Shown here: piece by piece, positions 5,465-37,726 of the stretch
How the letters are laid out: every line of letters starts with the position of its first letter
Numbering within the stretch: position 1 is the stretch's first letter
Notes under the pieces: generated by a model
Seen by the model: the letters and a program-made list of their open reading frames with translations, nothing else
Database searches by the model: none
Told to the model about the DNA's origin: nothing
NCBI GenBank assembly: GCA_037447655.1
Contig: JBBHKE010001819.1
Span: 1 to 39,737, forward strand
Reading direction: 5' to 3'
DNA from: Zygnema cylindricum
Taxonomy: Eukaryota > Streptophyta > Zygnematophyceae > Zygnematales > Zygnemataceae
DNA length: 39,737 bases
Position numbers and translations under genes: made by a program

Positions 5465-5707
5465 TGTGGTTTTAAAACAATTGGTGGTACCAAAAACGTA
5501 TAACTATGTGGCCTCCATTGGCCCATAGAATGTGCAGCTTATGTAAAGCCTCTAGGATAATATTTGCCTTTTTGACTTTCAGACCAAATAGAATTCACTC
5601 GGTCAGGATAGTATTTTGACCAACCTCACACTTGTGAAGGTCGGACTCCTTTAAGTCAAACGAACTAAATATCTCTGAATTTGCTTCCCGGAGTAGTAAG
5701 TTATGTA

Positions 5708-5723: not shown

Positions 5724-6021
5724 ATTTTTACAAAAGGTCATATAGAGAGAGGCGCCTCAAAAATAGCTAAGTCTTTAAACCTTCTACTCATAGCTACCTA
5801 CTATTGAACCCAGTACCAATAAGAGGACTATATATTACAAGAAGGTACAATGGCCAGTGTAGTTTTTGTACAGCCATTGTAGGATATGGCTTTCTGGGTG
5901 AGGCTTGTCAGCTTGGGAGCCATAGTTCCTCCTCCCCTCATCTCCGGCGACTAGTGATATAACGCCACGTGGCATTACGTGACTCCATCTCCGAAAGCTG
6001 CCTAAAGGTCATTTCGGGTTT

Positions 6022-6026: not shown

Positions 6027-7073
6027 TGCAATTCTGTGTCCTCCATTGGACCACAGAATACAGGAAGCCTCTAGATAGTATTTAACTAACCCACTTTAAG
6101 CCACAACCACTGCTGCACAAGAAGGCAAACTGACAATTTGACTGCACCCCTGTGTAGCCTGGACTCCCTTGAGTCCGTAGAAAAAATAATCACTGAAAAC
6201 GGCCAACCAGGCGATAAGTTATAGGGTGGCAAAGATGCCAATTTATACAAACTCTCTGAGAGAGAGGACTATCTACCTAAATTTTCCTAAGTCCTAGTTT
6301 TTCCTAATTCCCTCTCACAGCTCCTATCTACTGCCTGTACGAACCAATCACAAAACTGTATAGTACTAGAAAGTACTACTGCCGATGTACTTTCTGTACG
6401 GCCTCTGTACGACAAGGCCATAAGTGGACGTGTGTATACTTTCCACTCATCCGTACGTTCCTCAGAATTCCCGCGACCGAATGATGTTTCCCCACGTGGC
6501 GCCAAGTGATGCCACGTCACTAAATGCCAAAGTGACCACTCCGGGATTCCGGCGATGATGTGCGCCGTTGGATTATATGCGAAACGTAATCTTGGCCGGA
6601 ATAAATACTTGCGCGATATTTGTTCCGATGTAGAAATAAAATGCGTGGTATCTGCTTTGAATTAGCGTCGTACGACGTACTTTATAAAACTGTATATATG
6701 TACGCCGTAAACAGTTTTAGTTAGATGAACTTTATCCTTTCGAACTAAATATATATCTATCACATACCATAGCACTTAGCATTGGTCCTAGTCTATTAGG
6801 ATAAAGCTGACGGCTACCGGTCAACTTGACGAACCGAAGGTACCGGGATCAAATCTCTGGTCCGTCAAGTATATTTTTAGTAACCTACTAAAAATAGCTG
6901 TCTGTTGAACTAAGGCAGCCATGGATCAACCTCTCTCTCTTTCCTTCAGTGACTACAGCAAGTATGGGGGCTAGAGAGCGGAGGTGGAGGCAGGCTGTCC
7001 GTCCTTTCCTTTTTCCTTTTATAAAAACATATTTAAACCTAGAAAATACTCTAGAAATCTATAAATTTCAACA
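6027..7073 (-). repeat. 3' LTR of A1
   Basis: It is bounded by TG..CA and borders the polypurine tract at 7074. It holds the U3 CACGTG box (6493-6498), a GTAC-rich stretch (about 6335-6415), the antisense tRNA-like module (6784-6863), U5 hairpins (6161-6176, 6227-6240), and at its very end (6046-6044 on -) the gag ATG, which is non-functional as gag start here because flanking DNA follows. An open frame of 77 codons at 6287-6520, duplicated in the other LTR, has no family resemblance and is probably chance. Confidence 0.92.
6784..6863 (+). promoter_or_regulatory. Antisense tRNA-like module in A1 3' LTR
   Basis: On the strand opposite to the element, an A-box-like motif (ctattaggataaagc) is followed about 50 nt later by a B-box-like motif (gggatcaaatc) and tggtcc. 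Spacing and order fit an internal Pol III promoter of tRNA type. The identical copy in the 5' LTR is at 12173-12252. Confidence 0.5.
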
Positions 7074-7091: not shown

Positions 7092-10034
7092 CTAATTTAA
7101 TTTTTCTTTCAACCCGCATTTTTCCCGACAATATTTTAGTTTAGGAGAGGGCACAGGTTTGGTCATCATGTCAGCCACCATTTCTTCATCAGGTCTATAC
7201 ACAAGATTTAGAATTTTATTTTCAACTTTTTCTCTTACGAAGCTTAATCTTATGTCCATATGTTTTGCTTTGAAATGGTGTTTTGGATTGGCTGCAATTG
7301 CAATTGCAGCTTGGTTATCGCAAAAGATTTCATGCACTCCCTCCTTCATAAATCCCAGTTCTTGTAACAATGATTTCACCCACATTAGTTCTTTTACAGC
7401 AGAACACGATGCCATATACTCAGCCTCCATAGTAGACTGAGCAACCACCTTTTGTTGCTTACTGCTCCAACAGCAAGCACCTTCCCCCACATACAAAACA
7501 TATCCAGAAGTGCATCTTCTCATAGGTGCATCCCCATAACTGGCGTCACTCCAAGTGGTGATATCAGTATGCTCCCCTCCCAAATGCAACCATAACTCTT
7601 TAGTTCCCACCAGATATCTCATGACTCTCTTGGCTGCCTCCCAATCTCTCTTCCTAGGATCATTAAGACTCCTACTGAGTACTCCAACTGCTGCCGCTAT
7701 GTCCGGCCTGGTACAGTTCATAAAATAGATTAAGCTTCCTACGACCTGTCTATAAGGAATAGACTTCATGAACTCTCTCTCCTCTAGACTCATCTGATCG
7801 TCTAAGATCATCACTCCTCCTTCTACACTCCCATCACTTACTTTTTTCAAGTCCATGGGAGTGGTACAACTGTTAGCATTTTCCATCTGGAATTTCTCAA
7901 GCATATTACCTATTGCTTCTTTTTGAGTAAGTCTGATAATCTTCTTCCCTCTATCTCTCTCCATTTGGATCCCCAAAATATATTTTGCCTCCCCTAAATC
8001 CTTCATATCAAATCTGCCCCTAAGATCTTTCTTTAGCCTATTGATATTATCTAAAGACTTACTTAACACAAGCAGATCATCCACATAAATTGCAATAAAA
8101 ATGACACCATTCTCATCTTCAAACATATAGATAGAATGGTCAGAGCTGATCCGGATGTATCCCAGATCGGTGAGAAACTCATCTAGTTTCTTATTCCACT
8201 GTCGGGGAGCATGTTTCAGTCCATATAAGGACTTTATGAGCCTGCACACTTTGCTCTCTTCTCCTTCTTCCACAAACCCCTCGGGTTGCCTCGTAAAAAT
8301 TTCTTCCTCTAACTCACCATTAAGAAAAGCAGTCTTAATATCCATCTGGTGAATTTCCATGTCTTCCGCTGCGGCTAGACTGAGGAGAATCCTTACCGAT
8401 GGGAACCGAACAACTGGAGCAAAGGTCTCCTCGTAGTCAATCCCCTCCTTTTGGGTGAACCCCTTTGCTACCAATCGAGCCTTATACCTCTCAATTGTAT
8501 TATCTGGGTTCAGTTTTAGTTTAAATACCCATTTACATCCAATAGGTTTTCTGTCTGGAGGGCAATCCGCTAGTTCCCAAGTATTTGCTTCCATGATAGA
8601 AGCCATCTCATCATTTATGGCTCTAATCCATCTTTCTTTCTCAGGACTATTCACTGCCTCTAAGTAAGACTGAGGCTCATCTGGGTGAGATAGCTTAGTT
8701 ACCTTATGGGCAGCTTGTTTTTCCTGTATCCTTTTGCTGCTCCTCCTTCCTCCCTCAAACTCCGAAGCTGGAACGGATGGAAGTCTTGGATTTCTTCTCA
8801 CTGTCTCATCGGCTCCCCTGTCCATAAAAACCGTATCTTGTCCCGCTTCTTCTATTTCTTCGAAGTCCATAGGAGTATGTGAGGTTTCCGGTGAGTCTCC
8901 TGTATCTTCGATCTCCCCTGAATCTGTAATCACAGTTTCACTCATGTCTTTTTCGGGAACGACTGAGTTCTCCTCACTTTCGGACTCAAATCTGATCCTT
9001 ATCTTCTTTGTATATTTGAAGGGGTCAAATGACTTCCCTTCATCCATGACAACTAAGTGTTTGACCAGAATGATATCTTTCTTTGCTAAGTCATAGACTC
9101 TATATCCCTTAACATCCTCATCATATCCCACAAAGTATCCAGGTTTTCCCTTAGCATCTAGTTTCCAGTTTTTCCTATCCGTGTCAAGACTGTAAACTTG
9201 GCTACCAAATACTTTAAGGTGTGAGATATCTGGTTTCCTTCCAACCCATCTCTCATAAGGTGTCACTCCCTTTACAACTGAGGTAAGGACTCTTTTTTTA
9301 ATATAGTTGGCACAGTTCATTGCCTTTGCCCAAAATCTCTTTCCTATTTTCTTGTCTGCCAACATACTACATGCACTATCTCCTAGTGTTTTATTCAACC
9401 TCTCAGCTACCCCATTTTGTTCTGGGTTATATGGTACAGTTTTCTGGTGCTGCACTCCCTCATCTCTCAAATATTCCTCAAACTCGTTAGAGGTATATTC
9501 CCCCCCATTATCACTCCTTATCATTTTAATGGGGGTTTCATGCAACTTCTCACTCCAAGCTTTATATTCTATGAAGTAAGTTGATGTTTCAGACTTTGTT
9601 TTCAGAAAGTATACTCTAGAGTATCTAGACCAGTCATCAGTTATTGTCATCATAAACCTCTTTCCTCCAACCGAAGGTACTTTTGCAAGTCCCCAAATAT
9701 CTGTGTGGACTAAATCTAATACTTTCTCACCTCTATATGTGGCGGCTTTGGGAAAGGGAAGTCTGTGAGCCTTACCTTGAGCACAACCACTACAATCATC
9801 CATCATTTCATTATCCCCAAACTCAATGCCATCTACTACCCCAAGTTTTTTCATTTCCCTTAACCTATCAAAATGTACATGTCCCAACCGCTTATGCCAA
9901 ATCATCACTTTAGGAACACCAACATAGTAAGCATTCTTCTTTTCATTACTCAAGTTAAGTCTAAACATTCCTTGGCTACCCTTATCTGCTGTGAAGTAAA
10001 CTTCATCCCCATACTTAGCTGTAAAGACTCCCTT
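7092..10034 (-). CDS. Copia-A Pol: integrase, reverse transcriptase, RNase H
   Basis: This is the downstream part of the A1 polyprotein, open for about 980 codons to a stop 18 bases before the LTR. Numbering from the Met at 9968: a GAG-pre-integrase zinc-binding region holds WHKRLGH (24-30) and CSGCAQGK (59-66). The DD35E integrase core has D90 (HTDIWG), D153 (RSDNGGEY) and E189 (NGVAERLN), with 35 residues between the last two. An acidic linker follows. RT starts at GCKWVFKLKLNP (477-488) and has D543 (QMDIKTAFL) and YVDD 628-631. RNase H has D807 (WSDASYG), the EAEY motif 847-850, D883 (CDNQ) and D904 (HMDIR). Length and order are normal for copia. The reading frame continues upstream to the TGA at 10037-10035. 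The first Met is therefore not a real start, since Pol would be made as a Gag-Pol fusion and cut by the protease. Confidence 0.93.
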   Translation of the reverse strand, partial: KGVFTAKYGDEVYFTADKGSQGMFRLNLSNEKKNAYYVGVPKVMIWHKRLGHVHFDRLREMKKLGVVDGIEFGDNEMMDDCSGCAQGKAHRLPFPKAATYRGEKVLDLVHTDIWGLAKVPSVGGKRFMMTITDDWSRYSRVYFLKTKSETSTYFIEYKAWSEKLHETPIKMIRSDNGGEYTSNEFEEYLRDEGVQHQKTVPYNPEQNGVAERLNKTLGDSACSMLADKKIGKRFWAKAMNCANYIKKRVLTSVVKGVTPYERWVGRKPDISHLKVFGSQVYSLDTDRKNWKLDAKGKPGYFVGYDEDVKGYRVYDLAKKDIILVKHLVVMDEGKSFDPFKYTKKIRIRFESESEENSVVPEKDMSETVITDSGEIEDTGDSPETSHTPMDFEEIEEAGQDTVFMDRGADETVRRNPRLPSVPASEFEGGRRSSKRIQEKQAAHKVTKLSHPDEPQSYLEAVNSPEKERWIRAINDEMASIMEANTWELADCPPDRKPIGCKWVFKLKLNPDNTIERYKARLVAKGFTQKEGIDYEETFAPVVRFPSVRILLSLAAAEDMEIHQMDIKTAFLNGELEEEIFTRQPEGFVEEGEESKVCRLIKSLYGLKHAPRQWNKKLDEFLTDLGYIRISSDHSIYMFEDENGVIFIAIYVDDLLVLSKSLDNINRLKKDLRGRFDMKDLGEAKYILGIQMERDRGKKIIRLTQKEAIGNMLEKFQMENANSCTTPMDLKKVSDGSVEGGVMILDDQMSLEEREFMKSIPYRQVVGSLIYFMNCTRPDIAAAVGVLSRSLNDPRKRDWEAAKRVMRYLVGTKELWLHLGGEHTDITTWSDASYGDAPMRRCTSGYVLYVGEGACCWSSKQQKVVAQSTMEAEYMASCSAVKELMWVKSLLQELGFMKEGVHEIFCDNQAAIAIAANPKHHFKAKHMDIRLSFVREKVENKILNLVYRPDEEMVADMMTKPVPSPKLKYCREKCGLKEKLN

Positions 10035-10037
10035 TCA
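10035..10037 (-). other. In-frame TGA between protease and integrase of A1
   Basis: It is the only stop in the ~1448-codon gag-pol frame. The equivalent codon in A2 (near 20845) is AGG in T-R-K-G, and A1 reads T-stop-K-G. A nonsense mutation is the simplest reading. A readthrough site cannot be excluded. Confidence 0.8.
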
Positions 10038-11435
10038 GGTGAAGGTATCAAAATCTTTGTCATCTAACACAGACGTAGAGACAAGGTTTTTACTCAGCTG
10101 TGGAATGTAAAGTACATCTGAGAATGTAAGTATAGAAGTCTTACCCTCCACTAAGACTTTCAGATCTACTAATCCCACTAGATCTGTAGTAACCACTCTC
10201 CCATCCCCATACTCTATCTCTACAGTAGGAATCTTTCTTAACTTAGTGAAGAGTTCTTTATCACGACACATATGCATGGATGCACCTGAGTCGATGATCC
10301 ATCCTTCCTGTGGAGCTTCCCGGATGGCTCCAAGGGCACACTTCTGCCTCCGAGGAATCTCCTTCTCCTCCAAACTCTCGTCAAGAAGAAGCTCCCCATC
10401 ATCCTCAGAGGACTCATCCTCGGTTTCTCCAGACACCTTTGTAACCACAAGTGCATTTTTCTTCCCTTCGGAAGAACCCCCTCCACGGTTCTCTTGGAGC
10501 CTCAGCTCTGATAGCTTGACACAATCTGCAATAAAGTGCCCCGGCTTTTTGCAAAAATGACAAAGACCCTTTGGGGGCCTTTGTCCCCCTGAATGATCTC
10601 TTTCCCCTCTATAAGGTTTCTTTGGGTCCTTTCCCCATCGGTCCCCTCCTACTGCTAGAGCTTGAATGCTCTTTCCTCCTCTCCTAATCTCCATTGTGTT
10701 TTCCTGCACAAGTATCATCCTGACTACTGTGTTCCATTTCCATGAACTATCAGGCATTCCCTGTACTCGGTACACTAAGTTTTCGAACTCATTTGGTAAT
10801 TTCATGATAAGGGTGTTAACTTTCATTTTCATTGTACCTATCCACCCGGCACTTTCCATTTCTGTATACAAACAAGAAAGATCATTACAATAATCTAACA
10901 TCTTTCCTCCTTTGTAAGTGTAACTCAATAGCTTTTGCTCAGCCAACTGGAGCTCCTGAATAGTTCCAGCTCTATAAATTTCCACCAAACTCACCCACAA
11001 CTCCTCGGCCTTGTAAATGTGAAGATGAGGAGTGGCCAAACCTTGAGTGAGGTGCCTCAGAATGAAGTTCTTGGCAGCCATGTTTACATCCTCCCACATT
11101 TGAGTATCGTTCTCCACGGTCTTCACGATTGCCACTCCCGATACTATGGCAATAGGAGTAAGGGGTGTCTCCTTCCCTTTCCCCTTTTCGGACACACTGC
11201 TGTCCCCATCATCTGCCTCCTCCGCCGAGGCAGCCGTTGTTGCAGGAAACCTTACTCCTCCAAATCCTGGTGGAGTTCTTGAAGGTGGACGTTTCACTTG
11301 TCCACTGACGATACCCCAGTATCGTTTTTCACACAAAGCTCCCATCATCATGGCTTCCCAATAGATGAACCCAGATCCATTGAAGGTGGGCACCCTAGAG
11401 GGTGGGCCCATAATCTGCAATTCTGTGTCCTCCAT
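10035..11435 (-). CDS. Copia-A Gag-protease, starting inside the LTR
   Basis: This 466-codon frame encodes Gag plus aspartic protease. The ATG at 11435 lies 20 nt inside the 5' LTR, and the next codons cross the PBS (11415-11401). Met9, encoded by the PBS itself, is an alternative start. Gag begins with VPTFNGSGFIYWE (15-27) and has the helical core with YTYKGGKMLDYCNDL (172-186). A CX2CX4HX4C zinc knuckle is at C292-C295-H300-C305, for RNA packaging. The acidic region 336-358 precedes the protease, whose catalytic IDSGAS lies at 381-386. The frame ends at a TGA (10037-10035) between protease and integrase, and the downstream frame continues in phase. The leader is wholly LTR-derived, so any RNA signals must lie in U5 or gag. 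Confidence 0.9.
   Translation of the reverse strand: MEDTELQIMGPPSRVPTFNGSGFIYWEAMMMGALCEKRYWGIVSGQVKRPPSRTPPGFGGVRFPATTAASAEEADDGDSSVSEKGKGKETPLTPIAIVSGVAIVKTVENDTQMWEDVNMAAKNFILRHLTQGLATPHLHIYKAEELWVSLVEIYRAGTIQELQLAEQKLLSYTYKGGKMLDYCNDLSCLYTEMESAGWIGTMKMKVNTLIMKLPNEFENLVYRVQGMPDSSWKWNTVVRMILVQENTMEIRRGGKSIQALAVGGDRWGKDPKKPYRGERDHSGGQRPPKGLCHFCKKPGHFIADCVKLSELRLQENRGGGSSEGKKNALVVTKVSGETEDESSEDDGELLLDESLEEKEIPRRQKCALGAIREAPQEGWIIDSGASMHMCRDKELFTKLRKIPTVEIEYGDGRVVTTDLVGLVDLKVLVEGKTSILTFSDVLYIPQLSKNLVSTSVLDDKDFDTFT
11401..11415 (-). other. A1 primer binding site, half-tRNA-iMet type
   Basis: The - strand reads GATTATGGGCCCACC directly after the LTR end (GAATTGCA). From memory of the plant initiator tRNA-Met, positions 26-40 (end of D arm through anticodon loop to stem) are GGUGGGCCCAUAACC, which is complementary with one mismatch at the second PBS base. 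This is the half-tRNA mode known from Drosophila copia, not the usual 3'-CCA mode. The PBS lies in the gag frame as (Q-)I-M-G-P. Confidence 0.8.
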
Positions 11436-11549
11436 TGGACCACAGAATACAGGAAGCCTCTAGATAGTATTTAACTAACCCACTTTAAGCCACAACCACT
11501 GCTGCACAAGAAGGCAAACTGACAATTTGACTGCACCCCTGTGTAGCCT

Positions 11550-11629
11550 GGACTCCCTTGAGTCCGTAGAAAAAAGAATCACTGAAAACGGCCAACCAGG
11601 CGATAAGTTATAGGGTGGCAAAGATGCCA
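11550..11629 (-). promoter_or_regulatory. U5 leader hairpins of A1
   Basis: Two short stem-loops lie between the predicted promoter and the gag ATG. 11616-11629 is TGGCA-TCTT-TGCCA on the - strand, and 11550-11565 is GGACTC-AAGG-GAGTCC. The first keeps the loop of A2 hairpin 1 but has a different, still paired stem. The middle hairpin of other copies is weaker here (GCC..GGC). Copies in the 3' LTR are at 6161-6240. Confidence 0.6.
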
Positions 11630-12172
11630 ATTTATACAAACTCTCTGAGAGAGAGGACTATCTACCTAAATTTTCCTAAGTCCTAGTTTTTCCTAATTCC
11701 CTCTCACAGCTCCTATCTACTGCCTGTACGAACCAATCACAAAACTGTATAGTACTAGAAAGTACTACTGCCGATGTACTTTCTGTACGGCCTCTGTACG
11801 ACAAGGCCATAAGTGGACGCGTGTATACTTTCCACTCATCCGTACGTTCCTCGGAATTCCCGCGACCGAATGATGTTTCCCCACGTGGCGCCAAGTGATG
11901 CCACGTCACTAAATGCCAAAGTGACCACTCCGGGATTCCGGCGATGATGTGCGCCGTTGGATTATATGCGAAACGTAATCTTGGCCGGAATAAATACTTG
12001 CGCGATATTTGTTCCGATGTAGAAATAAAATGCGTGGTATCTGCTTTGAATTAGCGTCGTACGACGTACTTTATAAAACTGTATATATGTACGCCGTAAA
12101 CAGTTTTAGTTAGATGAACTCTATCCTTTCGAACTAAATATATATCTATCACATACCATAGCACTTAGCATT

Positions 12173-12252
12173 GGTCCTAGTCTATTAGGATAAAGCTGAC
12201 GGCTACCGGTCAACTTGACGAACCGAAGGTACCGGGATCAAATCTCTGGTCC
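12173..12252 (+). promoter_or_regulatory. Antisense tRNA-like module in A1 5' LTR
   Basis: This is the same motif pair as at 6784-6863. It would drive Pol III transcription opposite to the element, toward the start of U3, if active. Confidence 0.5.
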
Positions 12253-12462
12253 GTCAAGTATATTTTTAGTAACCTACTAAAAATAGCTGTCTGTTGAACT
12301 AAGGCAGCCATGGATCAACCTCTCTCTCTTTCCTTCAGTGACTACAGCAAGTATGGGGGCTAGAGAGCGGAGGTGGAGGCAGGCTGTCCGTCCTTTCCTT
12401 TTTCCTTTTATAAAAACATATTTAAACCTAGAAAATACTCTAGAAATCTATAAATTTCAACA

Positions 12463-19221: not shown

Positions 19222-19346
19222 TTCTCCTCACAAGAGTGAGAGTGGTCAGAATATTTGTGTGCCTGGACGGTGATTATTCAGCGTGAAAGAAGAAGGGGCA
19301 AATATTATCCTAGAGGGTTTACATAGGCTGCTCATTCTTTGGGTCA

Positions 19347-20796
19347 ATGGAGACCACAGAATTTCAGGTTATGGGCCCACCCTCTAGGGTGCCTATATTT
19401 GATGGATCAGACTTTCTTTATTGGGAAATGATGATGGAGGGAGAACTATTTGAGAAGCATCTATGGGGCATAGTATCTGGACAAATTCGATGCCCACCTC
19501 CACCTGGGTTTGGAGGGACACGTTTTTTCAGGCACCTCCGCCTTTACAGTTGGTAGATTAGCTGCCACCATCACCGAGGATGATGATGAGGAAGGAGAGG
19601 AGATTTTCATGGAAGGAGAAAAGGGAGGAGTTGCAACTCAAGTGACACCATTGTTGAAGGCGATACCGACAGCAGCACCACCAAAAACGGCGACAAGGGT
19701 TCAAACCGAAAGATAAGAGTATGAAAAGTGGAACTACAAAGACAAGGTTGCTAAGCTCTTAATTTTTAAAAGTGTAGCAAAGGGCATTGCCATTCCCTTT
19801 ATTCATGTCAAATCTTCATCTCAGATTTGGATATCACTAGTTAACAAATATAAGAGTGGATCATTGCAGTAACAACAGTTGGCCGAAAATAAGATTGGAG
19901 CTTATACTTATAAAGGAGGAAGTATGAATAATTATTGCAATGATTTAGGAGCATTATTTGGAGAGTTAGAGAGTGCAGGTAACTCATGGTCCGAGAGATA
20001 AAGAGTGAACACATTAATGATGAAACTACTTGAAGAGTATAAGAACATCATTAACCAATTGTAGGACATGGGAGATAGCAATTGGAATTGGGATGACACA
20101 GTGGGAATGATTTTAGTGAAAGAAAGCACCATAGAGCTTAGGAGAGGGAGTCCAAGTGTTCAAGCATTGTCTGCAGGAGCTGATTGGCGGAAGCGTGATG
20201 AGGAGAGAGGGAAAGATCCTTATCGAATCTTTGGTGGAAGAGGACAAGGAGGTGGCAGATTTGATAGACAGGGGAGAGGAACTTCTCGAGGAGGATTATG
20301 CCACTTTTGCAAAAAACCGGGACACTTTATGGCAGATTGTGTCAAACTTGCAGATCTTCGACTAAAATATGGTCAAGGAACCTCAAAGGATGAAGGAAAG
20401 AAAAAGGCTTTCCTGATTCAAGTTCATGATGAGGAAGTGGAAGGAAAAACTAACCTGGAAGAGGAGCTTGAGGAGCTTCTTCTTAATCCGAAAAACACTG
20501 AAAAGCATGCCGACATTCCACGGAGACAAAAGTGTGCTTTCGGAGGTAAGAGGGATCCACCCGAGGATGGGTGGATCGTAGACTCAGTGGCTTCAATGCA
20601 TATGTGCAAAGATAAGCGGTGGTTTACTAAACTGAGAAAGATCCCAACAGTTGAGATAGAGTACGGAGATGGTAGAGTAGAAACCACAAGTCTTATTGGA
20701 ACTGTTGACTTGAAGGTTCTAGTTCATGGAAAGGCCTCAATTGTAACACTCTCAGACGTTCTTTACATTCCACAGCTTAGCAAGAACCTAGTCTAA
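19347..20796 (+). pseudogene. A2 gag-protease, broken
   Basis: It starts at the ATG in the LTR (19347) and crosses the PBS in frame (M-E-T-T-E-F-Q-V-M-G-P-P-S). VPIFDGSDFLYWE follows. A frameshift near 19530 and several stops (for example at 19714, 19870, 19998 and 20062) interrupt Gag. From 20068 a 242-codon frame is open with a zinc knuckle CHFCKKPGHFMADC (about 20299-20340) and the protease region, where the catalytic DSG is now DSV (WIVDSVASMHMC). This copy's protease should therefore be dead. The frame ends at a TAA (20794-20796) just before the integrase. Confidence 0.88.
19367..19381 (+). other. A2 primer binding site, perfect half-tRNA-iMet match
   Basis: GGTTATGGGCCCACC follows the LTR end directly. 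It is fully complementary to GGUGGGCCCAUAACC, positions about 26-40 of plant-type initiator tRNA-Met as I recall it. The ATG in it pairs with the CAU anticodon and is in the gag frame. Confidence 0.85.
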
Positions 20797-25632: not shown

Positions 25633-26382
25633 CCCTTTCAAACATCTGTGATATTCTCTCGGACGAGAATCATCCCTACCACAGAATTTTAGGTCCACTT
25701 GGAGTCCGGTAGATCTTGTATATGGTTGACTATATTCTCATACTGATCGGGTAACTTCATGAGTAAACACTTAACCTTCGCCTTTTCAGTTTCTAACTTT
25801 CCAGCACTCTCTAAGTCCATAAATAGTCTTGCAAGCTCAAAACATAAATCTAACATCTTTCCTCCTTTGTGGACAAATGCATCTATTTTATGATCTGCGA
25901 ACTACTGTTGTTGAATCCTACCACTTTGGTACGTATCTATGAGTGCCATCGGTAGACCGGATGCCCTTTCTATTTGCAAATGAAGAGATGCAAGCCCTTG
26001 AGTGAGATTGCGGAGAATGAAATGCATTGCAGCCATATTATTATACTTTCACGTATCAATATCATTTCTCCTCGTTTCTCAAAACAGGTGACATGATTGC
26101 CGAACCGGTTATTTATTGTGTTGATTCTCTTTTTACTTTCCTTTGTCTATCACTTCCACTTCCTTCGTCTCGTCCAATGGAACTGGATTTGCATCCCTCG
26201 TAAATCTGCTCCCTCCAAATCCTGGAGAGATGCCTAAAATGGATGAACGTCTCATCCGTCCACTAAATATCCCCCAAAACATTTCTCACACACAGCACCT
26301 GTCATCATACTTTCCCTGTATATGAAGCCACTTCCATTAAAGATGGGCACCCTAAAGTGTGGTGTAATTGTGTGACCTCCAT
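25633..26382 (-). pseudogene. A3 gag fused to the RT linker by deletion
   Basis: The ATG (26382) lies 20 nt inside the LTR. The PBS region is shortened (see finding). Downstream, degenerate Gag is visible, including a KGGKMLDLCFELA-like and KLPDQYENIV-like block (about 25880-25715) and GMILVRENIT near 25670. It then jumps at about 25632 directly to the linker before RT. The zinc knuckle, protease and whole integrase are missing, making this an internally deleted copy. Confidence 0.75.
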
Positions 26383-26464
26383 TGGCCCACATAATGTCTA
26401 GCTTATATGAAGACTTTAGAATAATACTTGCCCTTTTGAATTTCCCACTGAATAACTACCACCC
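26363..26464 (-). repeat. A3/A4 shared LTR, piece 1 (U5 end)
   Basis: This is the last 102 bases of a - strand Copia-A LTR, with gag ATG at 26382-26380. It is interrupted by the solo LTR; the sequence resumes at 27525 (aataactaccaccc | tggcacgcaaaa), which together matches the A2 leader near 19255-19290. Confidence 0.8.
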
Positions 26465-27519
26465 TGTAGAAATTAATGGTCTTTTACATTATTTTTTAGG
26501 TCTGAATAGAAATAAGCAAGAAGCCGAGGCAGTCTACCTCTAACTTCTCTCTCAAACTCTCAAACTTGTCGCAGTCACTGAGAAATTTGAGAGGAAGCTA
26601 GAGCCAGGGATACCTAGGCTATCCATAGGTTTACGGGATATATATATTAGTTTATTTATAATTAAGGATATGTTTACTAAAATATATGTGCCATCTCCAG
26701 GATTTGAACCTAGAACCTGCCGGCGTGTAATCCGGCGATAGCTGGTAGCTCTAATCGTTAACTCTAGAGATAGTATTACGTAATATTAGGTTTGATAATT
26801 TTGTAAACATTTATACGTAGGATAGTTCATTTAACTTAAATAGTTTTACGGGAGACATAGATCCAGTAATGTAAAAGTACGGATTACGCTACGGATAAGA
26901 AATGAATACCGTGCATTTATTTCTTACCGAAACGAATACTGCGCATGTATTTATTACTGCTAAGATTAAATGTGTATTTAATCGGACGGCCAAAATTAAA
27001 CGCCGAGATCGCGCAAGGGAATTTCGGTGGTTTTTGATCATAGCCACGTTGGATGACACGTGGCGGAATGGCATTAGATCGTGGCATCTCCGAGGATTAA
27101 TGGAGCGAATCCGGATATACCACGTGTCGACATTTAGGCCATGTCGTACAATATTCGTACAGAAAGTACACGGGCAGCTGTACTTTTGTGTACGGAGGAG
27201 TAATCTGATTGGCTTCGTACATCAGTAGATAGAGTAGATAGGACTTAGAAAAATTAGGAGATAGGACCCTCTCTCCCAGAGAGCTTCTATACAAAAGGTC
27301 AACTTTGACCCTCCATAACTTACTGCTCAGGGGAGCAAATTCAGATATTCTTTTTGCTATCGACTCTAGGAATCTTGCCTTTATAGGGGTGAAGGTGGTG
27401 AGAGTTATTGTCTGCCAGGGTGGCAGTTTCTTTTGCTGAAACACAAAGGGGTTAGGGTTATACTTGAGGTTTCTTGGAAGCAATCCACTCTGAGAACTTA
27501 TGGAGGTCTCAGAGTTTCA
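26465..27519 (+). mobile_element. Solo Copia-A LTR with TSD caccc
   Basis: A lone 1055-bp + strand LTR (TGTAGAAATT..GAGTTTCA) is flanked by caccc at 26460-26464 and 27520-27524. It is the product of LTR-LTR recombination. It holds its own tRNA-like module, CACGTG boxes (27057-27062 and 27121-27126), a GTAC cluster (27144-27220), two perfect U5 hairpins (27297-27310, 27324-27337) and the ATG (27500) 20 nt from the end, followed by GAG GTC TCA GAG TTT CA. It belongs to a third subfamily, closest to A5 at its end. Confidence 0.93.
26701..26772 (-). promoter_or_regulatory. Antisense tRNA-like module in the solo LTR
   Basis: The - strand has an A-box-like GTTAACGATTAGAGC (26762-26748), a perfect 5-bp anticodon-type stem GCCGG..CCGGC around an 8-nt loop (26736-26719) and a B box GGTTCAAATC (26710-26701). 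This copy is the most tRNA-like in structure. The loop contains TAC. Confidence 0.55.
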
Positions 27520-36893: not shown

Positions 36894-37711
36894 CCGGAAG
36901 GATACACGTGACGGATTTCAAAGGTATACAAACATTAACAAGACCGCTAATTAACACCAAACTAACAAAGAGGAAATAATTCATGCATGTACGTGAATAT
37001 AAACCATGAAAAATATGTTTTGATCAGACAACCAATATTGTAGCCGCCACCCGAAGTGAGCTTTTGGCGGCGTTTGGAGATTGCGTCACGCGGTGCCACA
37101 TGGCGCCATATTTCTTGATACCGAAAAAGATGGGAGGAGGAAAGATGGCTCCCGATTTGAGAGGTGTCACCTTGTATACCATGTCGTACAATGGACGTAC
37201 AATAAGTACATCGCCCATTGTACCTTCTTGTACTATGTAGTGTTCGTGTTGGACTAGAATTTAGTGATGGGTAGTCGTGAGTAGGCAGACCAAGACTTAG
37301 TGATATTTAGGTACATCTTTGTAAGAGACCTTGTAACTATAAAGGTCCTCTTTGACTAGCCATAACTAACTGCCCAGGGGAGCAAATTATGTGATTCTTT
37401 TTGCTACATACTCAGGAGAATCCAAGCTATACAGAGGTGAATTTTGTCGAAGTTTTTGCTTGCAAAGGTGGATGCATTTATAAGGTAAAGTCAAAGTGGG
37501 TGAATGTGTCCAAAACTCATATTCTAACTTTGCATTCTGTGATAGAACTAAGCACACAGAAAGTCTTATTTTACAAGGGTGAAGTTGTATTCGGGTTTTG
37601 ATTGTCAAGGGGTCAATCATTTGGGTTTATATAAACTTAGAGTCGTCACTATCTAGAAAAGCTTCTTGTGAGTTGCCTAGTTTGAGGACCGATGTAGGTC
37701 TCAGAGTTATA

Positions 37712-37726
37712 GGTTATGGGCTCACT
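37712..37726 (+). other. A5 primer binding site, two mismatches
   Basis: GGTTATGGGCTCACT matches the half-tRNA-iMet site of A2 at 13 of 15 positions. Both changes are C-to-T. Confidence 0.75.

Follow-up and report, generated by a model that had tools for sequence, protein, structure and literature searches.

Introduction

Elements with LTRs must divide one RNA between translation and reverse transcription. In BARE, a copia element of barley with an untranslated leader between its LTR and gag, the split between the translated and the replicated RNA has been studied (PMC3735527). A gag start inside the LTR combined with a coding primer binding site (PBS) is a known arrangement, that of Ty1 of Saccharomyces cerevisiae (genus Pseudovirus). 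The 5′ UTR of Ty1 comprises nt 1-53, its R region starts at 241 and its LTR is 334 bp long (PMC5454406); because the 5′ UTR is counted from R at 241 of the 334-bp LTR, the GAG AUG falls inside the LTR. The Ty1 PBS lies inside the GAG frame (PMC5454406, PMC4974528), and mutations of it have been designed to keep the Gag residues (PMC5454406). Priming proceeds from the 3′ end of the whole tRNA, and the Ty1 PBS has been described as lying within U5 (PMC5371799).

The hemivirus type is characterised by half-tRNA priming (PMC8515867). Copia, Ty5, Osser, Bryco and part of Gymco-II are primed by a part of a tRNA, half of tRNA-Met where this is stated (PMC8515867, PMC6317226, PMC5371799), and for plants half-tRNA priming has been described in Osser, Bryco and part of Gymco-II (PMC6317226). 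The text cited here from PMC8515867, PMC6317226 and PMC5371799 makes no statement on the position of the hemivirus gag start. Stem-loops in U5 beside the priming site have been cited for Rous sarcoma virus and Tf1 (PMC5445492), and in fungal GalEa copia elements the LTR end, at which priming takes place, has a conserved hairpin (PMC5445492, PMC3601003).

Here we analyse copia-type elements of Zygnema cylindricum, starting from a stretch of 39,737 nt (contig JBBHKE010001819.1, hereafter the window). In the main family, family 1, the start of the gag frame falls in the LTR and the PBS is part of that frame, a Ty1-like architecture. Unlike that of Ty1, the family 1 PBS matches the anticodon arm of a tRNA and brings its own in-frame ATG, and the LTR ATG is located in the loop of a U5 hairpin. 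Family 1 resembles the hemiviruses in its predicted priming by part of a tRNA; the ORF of Ty5 may exceed its internal part, in which case Ty5 could share the trait of a gag start in the LTR. As with the retroviral U5-IR and the GalEa hairpin, the hairpin of family 1 stands at the LTR end, the site of priming; unlike them, it lies wholly within the LTR, the loop contains the putative gag AUG, and the 3′ arm is in frame with gag. A PBS, which family 1 has, is lacking in fungal GalEa elements, and BARE differs from family 1 by its untranslated leader. What is new is the half-tRNA PBS, the covarying U5 hairpin with an ATG in its loop, the in-frame ATG of the PBS and a second family with a 52-codon leader in the LTR. 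In the open-licence literature searched, no report of a half-tRNA PBS combined with such a hairpin was found, which does not establish that none exists.

Results

Copies in the window

The copy A1, on the reverse strand, is complete and recent: its 5′ LTR (11416..12462) and 3′ LTR (6027..7073), each of 1047 bp, differ at 4 of 1047 positions. A check for a target site duplication found the flanks GCGGC and GCTGC alike at 4 of 5 positions. The gag ORF (10035..11435, 466 aa) encodes a copia-type gag domain (Retrotran_gag_2) and a Pol_BBD domain, with a zinc-knuckle-like stretch scoring below the Pfam cut-off, and in the pol ORF (7092..9968) the integrase (rve, 84-182) precedes the reverse transcriptase (RVT_2, 462-705). 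This gene content and order, together with LTRs that begin with TG and end with CA, places A1 in the Ty1/copia superfamily (Pseudoviridae). Between 9969 and 10034 the gag frame stops and the pol frame opens further on; A1 is probably broken here, because its relative P0006 has one continuous frame.

Upstream of gag, a TATA-like box recognised by sequence only (11631..11636, reverse strand) lies 201 nt before the gag ATG. No ATG occurs between this box and the LTR ATG (11433..11435), which is the first possible gag start; the nearest upstream ATG is at -375. The LTR ATG is enclosed in a hairpin (11420..11448) that ends 4 nt before the LTR end and consists, as in family 1 generally, of 8 bp, one bulged nucleotide, 3 bp and a 6-nt loop, NATGGA, that holds the ATG; in A1 the 40-nt fold has an energy of -18.5 kcal/mol and a z-score of -4.15. 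Directly after the LTR, the PBS GATTATGGGCCCACC (11401..11415) is read in frame, has one mismatch to the complement of nt 26-40 of the host initiator tRNA and contains a second in-frame ATG (11409-11411).

An ATG placed 20 nt before the LTR end had been proposed for six LTR ends of the window, and it is present at all six: A1 (11435, reverse strand), A2 (19347, forward), a solo LTR (27500, forward), A3 (26382, reverse), A6 (5518, reverse) and A5 (37692, forward). Of these, A1 and A2 alone have a gag frame that stays open through the PBS. The PBS adjoins the LTR end in three of the six, the 5′ LTR ends of A1, A2 and A5. In A2, a hairpin at 19334..19362 (forward), whose fold is weak (z -0.59), is followed by the PBS GGTTATGGGCCCACC (19367..19381), a perfect complement of tRNA nt 26-40. 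In A5, the hairpin (37679..37707, forward) holds an ATG that is directly followed by TAG as codon 2, and the PBS (37712..37726) has 2 mismatches. The solo LTR (hairpin at 27487..27515, forward) and A6 (5503..5531, reverse; codon 5 is TAG) likewise carry the ATG in the hairpin loop, and their LTR ends continue into other DNA with no PBS there. In A3 (hairpin with ATG in its loop at 26367..26395, reverse), the LTR end leads directly into gag at 26363 and below, and the PBS is mostly gone. The six hairpins fold at -8.0 to -18.5 kcal/mol; at gathering scores the window had no match in Rfam.

A half-tRNA primer binding site

In sequence, the PBS complements the anticodon arm of host tRNA-Met, nt 26-40 in the standard numbering that we assigned. 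Among 12 scanned loci found with TGGGCCCATAACCCA, five distinct tRNA-Met genes were present (one locus, L041, repeats L040), and we take them to be initiator tRNAs, judging from features of the anticodon stem. By its complementarity to an internal part of a tRNA the site is of the half-tRNA, hemivirus type, and initiator tRNA-Met is the predicted primer. Complementarity to a CAU anticodon means that such a PBS always includes an ATG, which here lies in the gag frame. The exact 15-mer GGTTATGGGCCCACC occurs at 5,974 places in the 353-Mb genome, the tRNA genes themselves included, against 6 for the reversed control, and the form ATTATGGGCCCACC at 148. Elements with this half-tRNA site thus seem hugely amplified, 40 of the 5,974 places having been inspected.

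At one place (L163, the same as L116), the tRNA complement continues for 26 nt, whereas at the other 98 of 99 sites of sample 1 (defined below) it stops at 13-16 nt; these 26 nt, complementary to tRNA-Met, stand just after the PBS ATG and are followed by a second LTR and gag. The structure looks like a fossil of a copied half-tRNA primer. In seven copies of sample 1 (L076, L106, L109, L134, L136, L142 and L143), the LTR ATG is shifted out of the gag frame by single-base or otherwise short changes in length, which cluster close to where LTR and PBS meet; this clustering may reflect imprecise priming. A rewriting of the LTR end by a longer tRNA (TGGG for CAGG in L039, L044 and L046-L049) at first seemed strong. 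We dropped it because two transitions are expected by chance, on a rough estimate, among some 6,000 PBS places, and because the paired 3′ LTRs of these copies are uncertain.

Conservation of the frame in family 1 and its relatives

Two samples were drawn from the genome. Sample 1 comprises 99 of the 148 places with ATTATGGGCCCACC; sample 2 comprises 40 of the first 100 listed places with GGTTATGGGCCCACC, hand-picked to spread over contigs C1-C44. In sample 1, an ATG stands at -24 from the PBS ATG at 73 of 99 sites, of which L111 and L131 are unrelated, and 63 have an open frame from the LTR ATG to the PBS ATG; the misses include three copies of family 2, unrelated sites and the seven copies with a length change near the LTR/PBS junction. 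In sample 2, 39 of 40 places belong to family 1, of which 37 have the LTR ATG and 33 the open frame. Among 84 LTR triplets, the LTR ATG ranks third in conservation (73 of 85 rows, 17 of 102 having been dropped as unrelated or out of register; the median triplet reaches 39%). An LTR ATG at this fixed distance is thus more than chance. ATGs upstream of the leader are scarce, not absent, with 90 in 86 copies over 180 nt.

Three relatives that are 42-67% identical in pol, the predicted proteins P0006, P0007 and P0008, start in frame upstream of the same QVMGP; known at the protein level alone, they begin MGSSMETIESQVMGP, MAESDDENSQVMGP and MATDEDETQQVMGP, with leaders of 11 or 7, 10 and 10 codons, respectively. 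In a set of 239 proteins, QVMGP among the first 60 residues is confined to these three; a different V/L/I/F-M-G occurs in that stretch in four more, including P0141, which has QVMGV. A protein search of IMG/VR gave no relatives, and none of the 29 IMG/VR stretches that hold CAGGTTATGGGCCC carried a relative of P0006-P0008 by tblastn. Five GTDB contigs encode copia relatives, none with such a PBS at the gag start on the one strand searched.

A covarying hairpin at the end of U5

Pairing in the hairpin was compared with that in shuffled copies. In sample 1, 88.1% of cells are paired, versus 75.0 ± 0.8 in shuffles, over 78 distinct copies (those left of 102 rows after removal of L131, of identical 42-mers and of 15 rows that match ATGGAG in place at fewer than 4 of 6 positions). 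Cells changed on both sides number 121, versus 43 ± 6; the pairs with a double change (7) and the pair types (19) showed no excess over shuffles in this sample, and controls in which the structure was slid gave 26-48% pairing. In sample 2 (35 distinct rows, that is, 39 less L234, which has a shifted stem, and identical rows), 91.7% are paired versus 79.7 ± 1.2 when shuffled, and double-sided changes number 57 versus 21 ± 6. The median fold z-score of the hairpin window is -1.88, with 39 of 85 rows below -2, and those of three control windows in the same rows are 0.59, -0.35 and -0.06. RNAalifold on A2 gave only the 3 inner pairs, and direct counting took its place in the test of the structure with 11 pairs. 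On a weakly supported tree, standard pair types change 6-9 times at the four pairs with the strongest covariation; such changes would not be independent events if whole hairpins were swapped by recombination, which is possible. Conservation in family 1 thus follows the RNA structure of the hairpin, a covarying, U5-IR-like stem-loop in U5 beside the PBS that was found in family 1 and not in family 2.

A second family without the hairpin

In family 2, a different gag (MGPPPKLPIFDGTDYLYWED...) follows the same PBS as in family 1, and the frame is open for 52 codons upstream into the LTR, beginning with MSDNGS or similar. A DNA search, in which the best 40 of 949 candidates were scored and which leans to close relatives, underlies a set of 43 rows: 39 near full-length matches plus L164 (itself the 40th match), L050, L165 and L166. 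Because only these best 40 of 949 were scored, the family is larger than the sampled set. The leader ATG is kept in 40 of 43 rows, the leader length is in frame in 39, 26 of these 39 are open with the ATG, and 27 of the 43 rows match the 13-nt PBS core exactly. The ATG is only moderately conserved (rank 45 of 230 triplets). No hairpin was found at this place in family 2, in which the median fold z is 0.79 at the U5 end and 0.5 at the ATG. Both LTR copies of a variant, L163, carry a leader of 32 codons that is shorter by 60 nt and still in frame.

No amino-acid constraint in the LTR leader

The sequence-only reading had named a lack of codon-level constraint at the LTR end as the finding that would speak against it, and such constraint is lacking: pN/pS in the leader is near 1. 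In sample 1, it is 0.88 (bootstrap 0.78-1.00) in the LTR leader versus 0.47 (0.41-0.51) in gag just after the PBS; the corresponding values are 0.87 (0.68-1.17) versus 0.31 (0.26-0.36) in sample 2 and 1.08 (0.94-1.24) versus 0.47 (0.34-0.64) in family 2. For the 33 copies of sample 1 without a stop in 90 codons, the leader has 0.85 and gag 0.39 over the same stretch, and gag 0.69 over +15 to +270, a stretch in which the comparison used unaligned rows. The leader resembles non-coding sequence in this measure, because the non-coding LTR just upstream, in the same phase, gives similar values of 0.89 (family 1) and 0.74 (family 2). Selection on the residues of the leader thus left no sign in either family. 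The family 1 values are confounded, because changes in the paired arms force residue changes; family 2 is free of that. With values near 1, we rejected pN/pS as proof of leader translation. A value of 0.41 in frame 2 of the family 2 leader was put down to codon make-up and mutation bias and discounted, because stops abound in this frame (220 in 39 rows).

Stops in the leader are not more frequent than in gag: 11 of 602 codons versus 341 of 6020 in family 1, where the gag figure includes frame-shifted copies, and 8 of 1813 versus 6 of 481 in family 2. The comparison is weak, because codons differ in their nearness to stops.

Discussion

Where does Gag start in these elements? The sequence-only reading held that gag starts in the LTR and that the PBS is coding. 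The continuous frame, its retention in several lineages and the ATG-free interval behind the TATA-like box of A1 agree with it, and the missing codon constraint does not. Its contrast with usual copia elements is too strong, given the arrangement of Ty1. It had also overlooked the second in-frame ATG, that of the PBS, and initiation at the LTR ATG remains putative. Starting from what is directly observed, namely the frame, the identity of the PBS, the hairpin with covarying arms and the absent amino-acid constraint in the LTR part, we lean, with modest confidence, towards a gag that begins at the LTR ATG, some ribosomes leaking on to the PBS ATG. A scanning ribosome would meet the LTR AUG, in the loop of the U5 hairpin, before any other; initiation would occur partly there and partly, by leakage, at the PBS AUG 24 nt further on in the same frame, and both forms of Gag would be made. 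In a translated RNA the hairpin and the PBS would be opened, and an RNA with the hairpin folded and the half-tRNA annealed to the adjacent PBS would be withdrawn from translation and committed to reverse transcription. Ribosomes and primer would in this manner compete for the same ~50 nt, and selection would maintain the hairpin, the PBS and the reading frame, whereas the residues of the leader would not be its target. In favour of this reading we count the open frame with ATG in 63 of 99 and 33 of 39 copies, the place of the LTR ATG in the best-conserved block of the LTR, the leader of family 2, the starts of P0006-P0008, the match of the PBS to host tRNA-Met genes and its abundance over the control, the covariation and fold scores of the hairpin, the ATG-free interval in A1 and the precedent of Ty1. 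Counted against it are the leader without amino-acid constraint, the weak context of the LTR ATG in family 1, with a C at -3 in 56 of 85 copies and in 29 of 39, the moderate conservation of the family 2 ATG, the weak fold of A2 and the ATGs upstream of the leader. A switch between translation and reverse transcription that depends on the hairpin cannot be general either, because family 2 lacks it.

Alternatively, Gag may start mainly at the PBS AUG, which complements the initiator anticodon; the LTR ATG would then be passed over and the leader hardly translated. The constraint on gag begins right after the PBS, and the PBS ATG has the better context, with A or G at -3 and G at +4; the search pattern imposes this context on both samples of family 1 and leaves it free in family 2, where G or A stands at -3 in 42 of 43 rows and G at +4 in 43 of 43. 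Moreover, an otherwise open gag lacks the LTR ATG or has a stop in the leader in 4 of 33 copies, and the leader is out of frame in L076, L109, L124 and L136. We nevertheless consider this alternative rather unlikely, if serious: an in-frame ATG with an open upstream frame is found in five lineages (by a rough estimate, a chance of about 1 in 4 for each), ATA replaces the PBS ATG in 5 of 43 copies of family 2, which may be dead, and a scanning ribosome reaches the LTR ATG first. The covarying arms and the absent codon constraint would also fit an LTR end conserved for reverse transcription or integration alone, as a U5-IR-like stem-loop plus LTR terminus, with the ATG a mere loop motif and its gag phase incidental; in keeping with such a role, stem-loops have been cited in the U5 of Rous sarcoma virus and Tf1, next to the site of priming (PMC5445492). 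Because the gag frame crosses the LTR end in family 2 as well, which lacks this hairpin, and because three relatives start upstream of the same PBS codons, we find this decidedly improbable. Most improbable of all appears an action of the inverted repeat as DNA, in recombination or in integrase binding: the repeat does end 4 nt from the LTR end, and a DNA and an RNA role look alike in sequence, yet G-U pairs are tolerated in the arms (20 of 78 copies at columns 17/24 and 15 of 78 at columns 11/29), which fits RNA better.

A more far-reaching version of the preferred reading, in which gag begins at the LTR ATG with leakage, would make the hairpin and the PBS AUG a switch by which one initiator tRNA species both reads the RNA, as the intact molecule, and primes it, as a half-molecule. 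Should progeny DNA derive its PBS from the primer, a Gag start codon would also be written into each new copy by the tRNA of the host. We regard this version as quite unlikely.

Thousands of natural copies bring the candidate start codons, the conserved hairpin and the site of priming together within about 50 nt, so that the conflict between translation and reverse transcription can be tested here with reporters. For annotation, the elements are a warning that the start of a frame can be missed when gag is predicted from after the PBS or when the LTR is treated as non-coding. At one further place in the genome (L215), a third type of gag (MGPPPWLPIFDGSNYHY) follows the same PBS, and there a stop is located 8 codons upstream.
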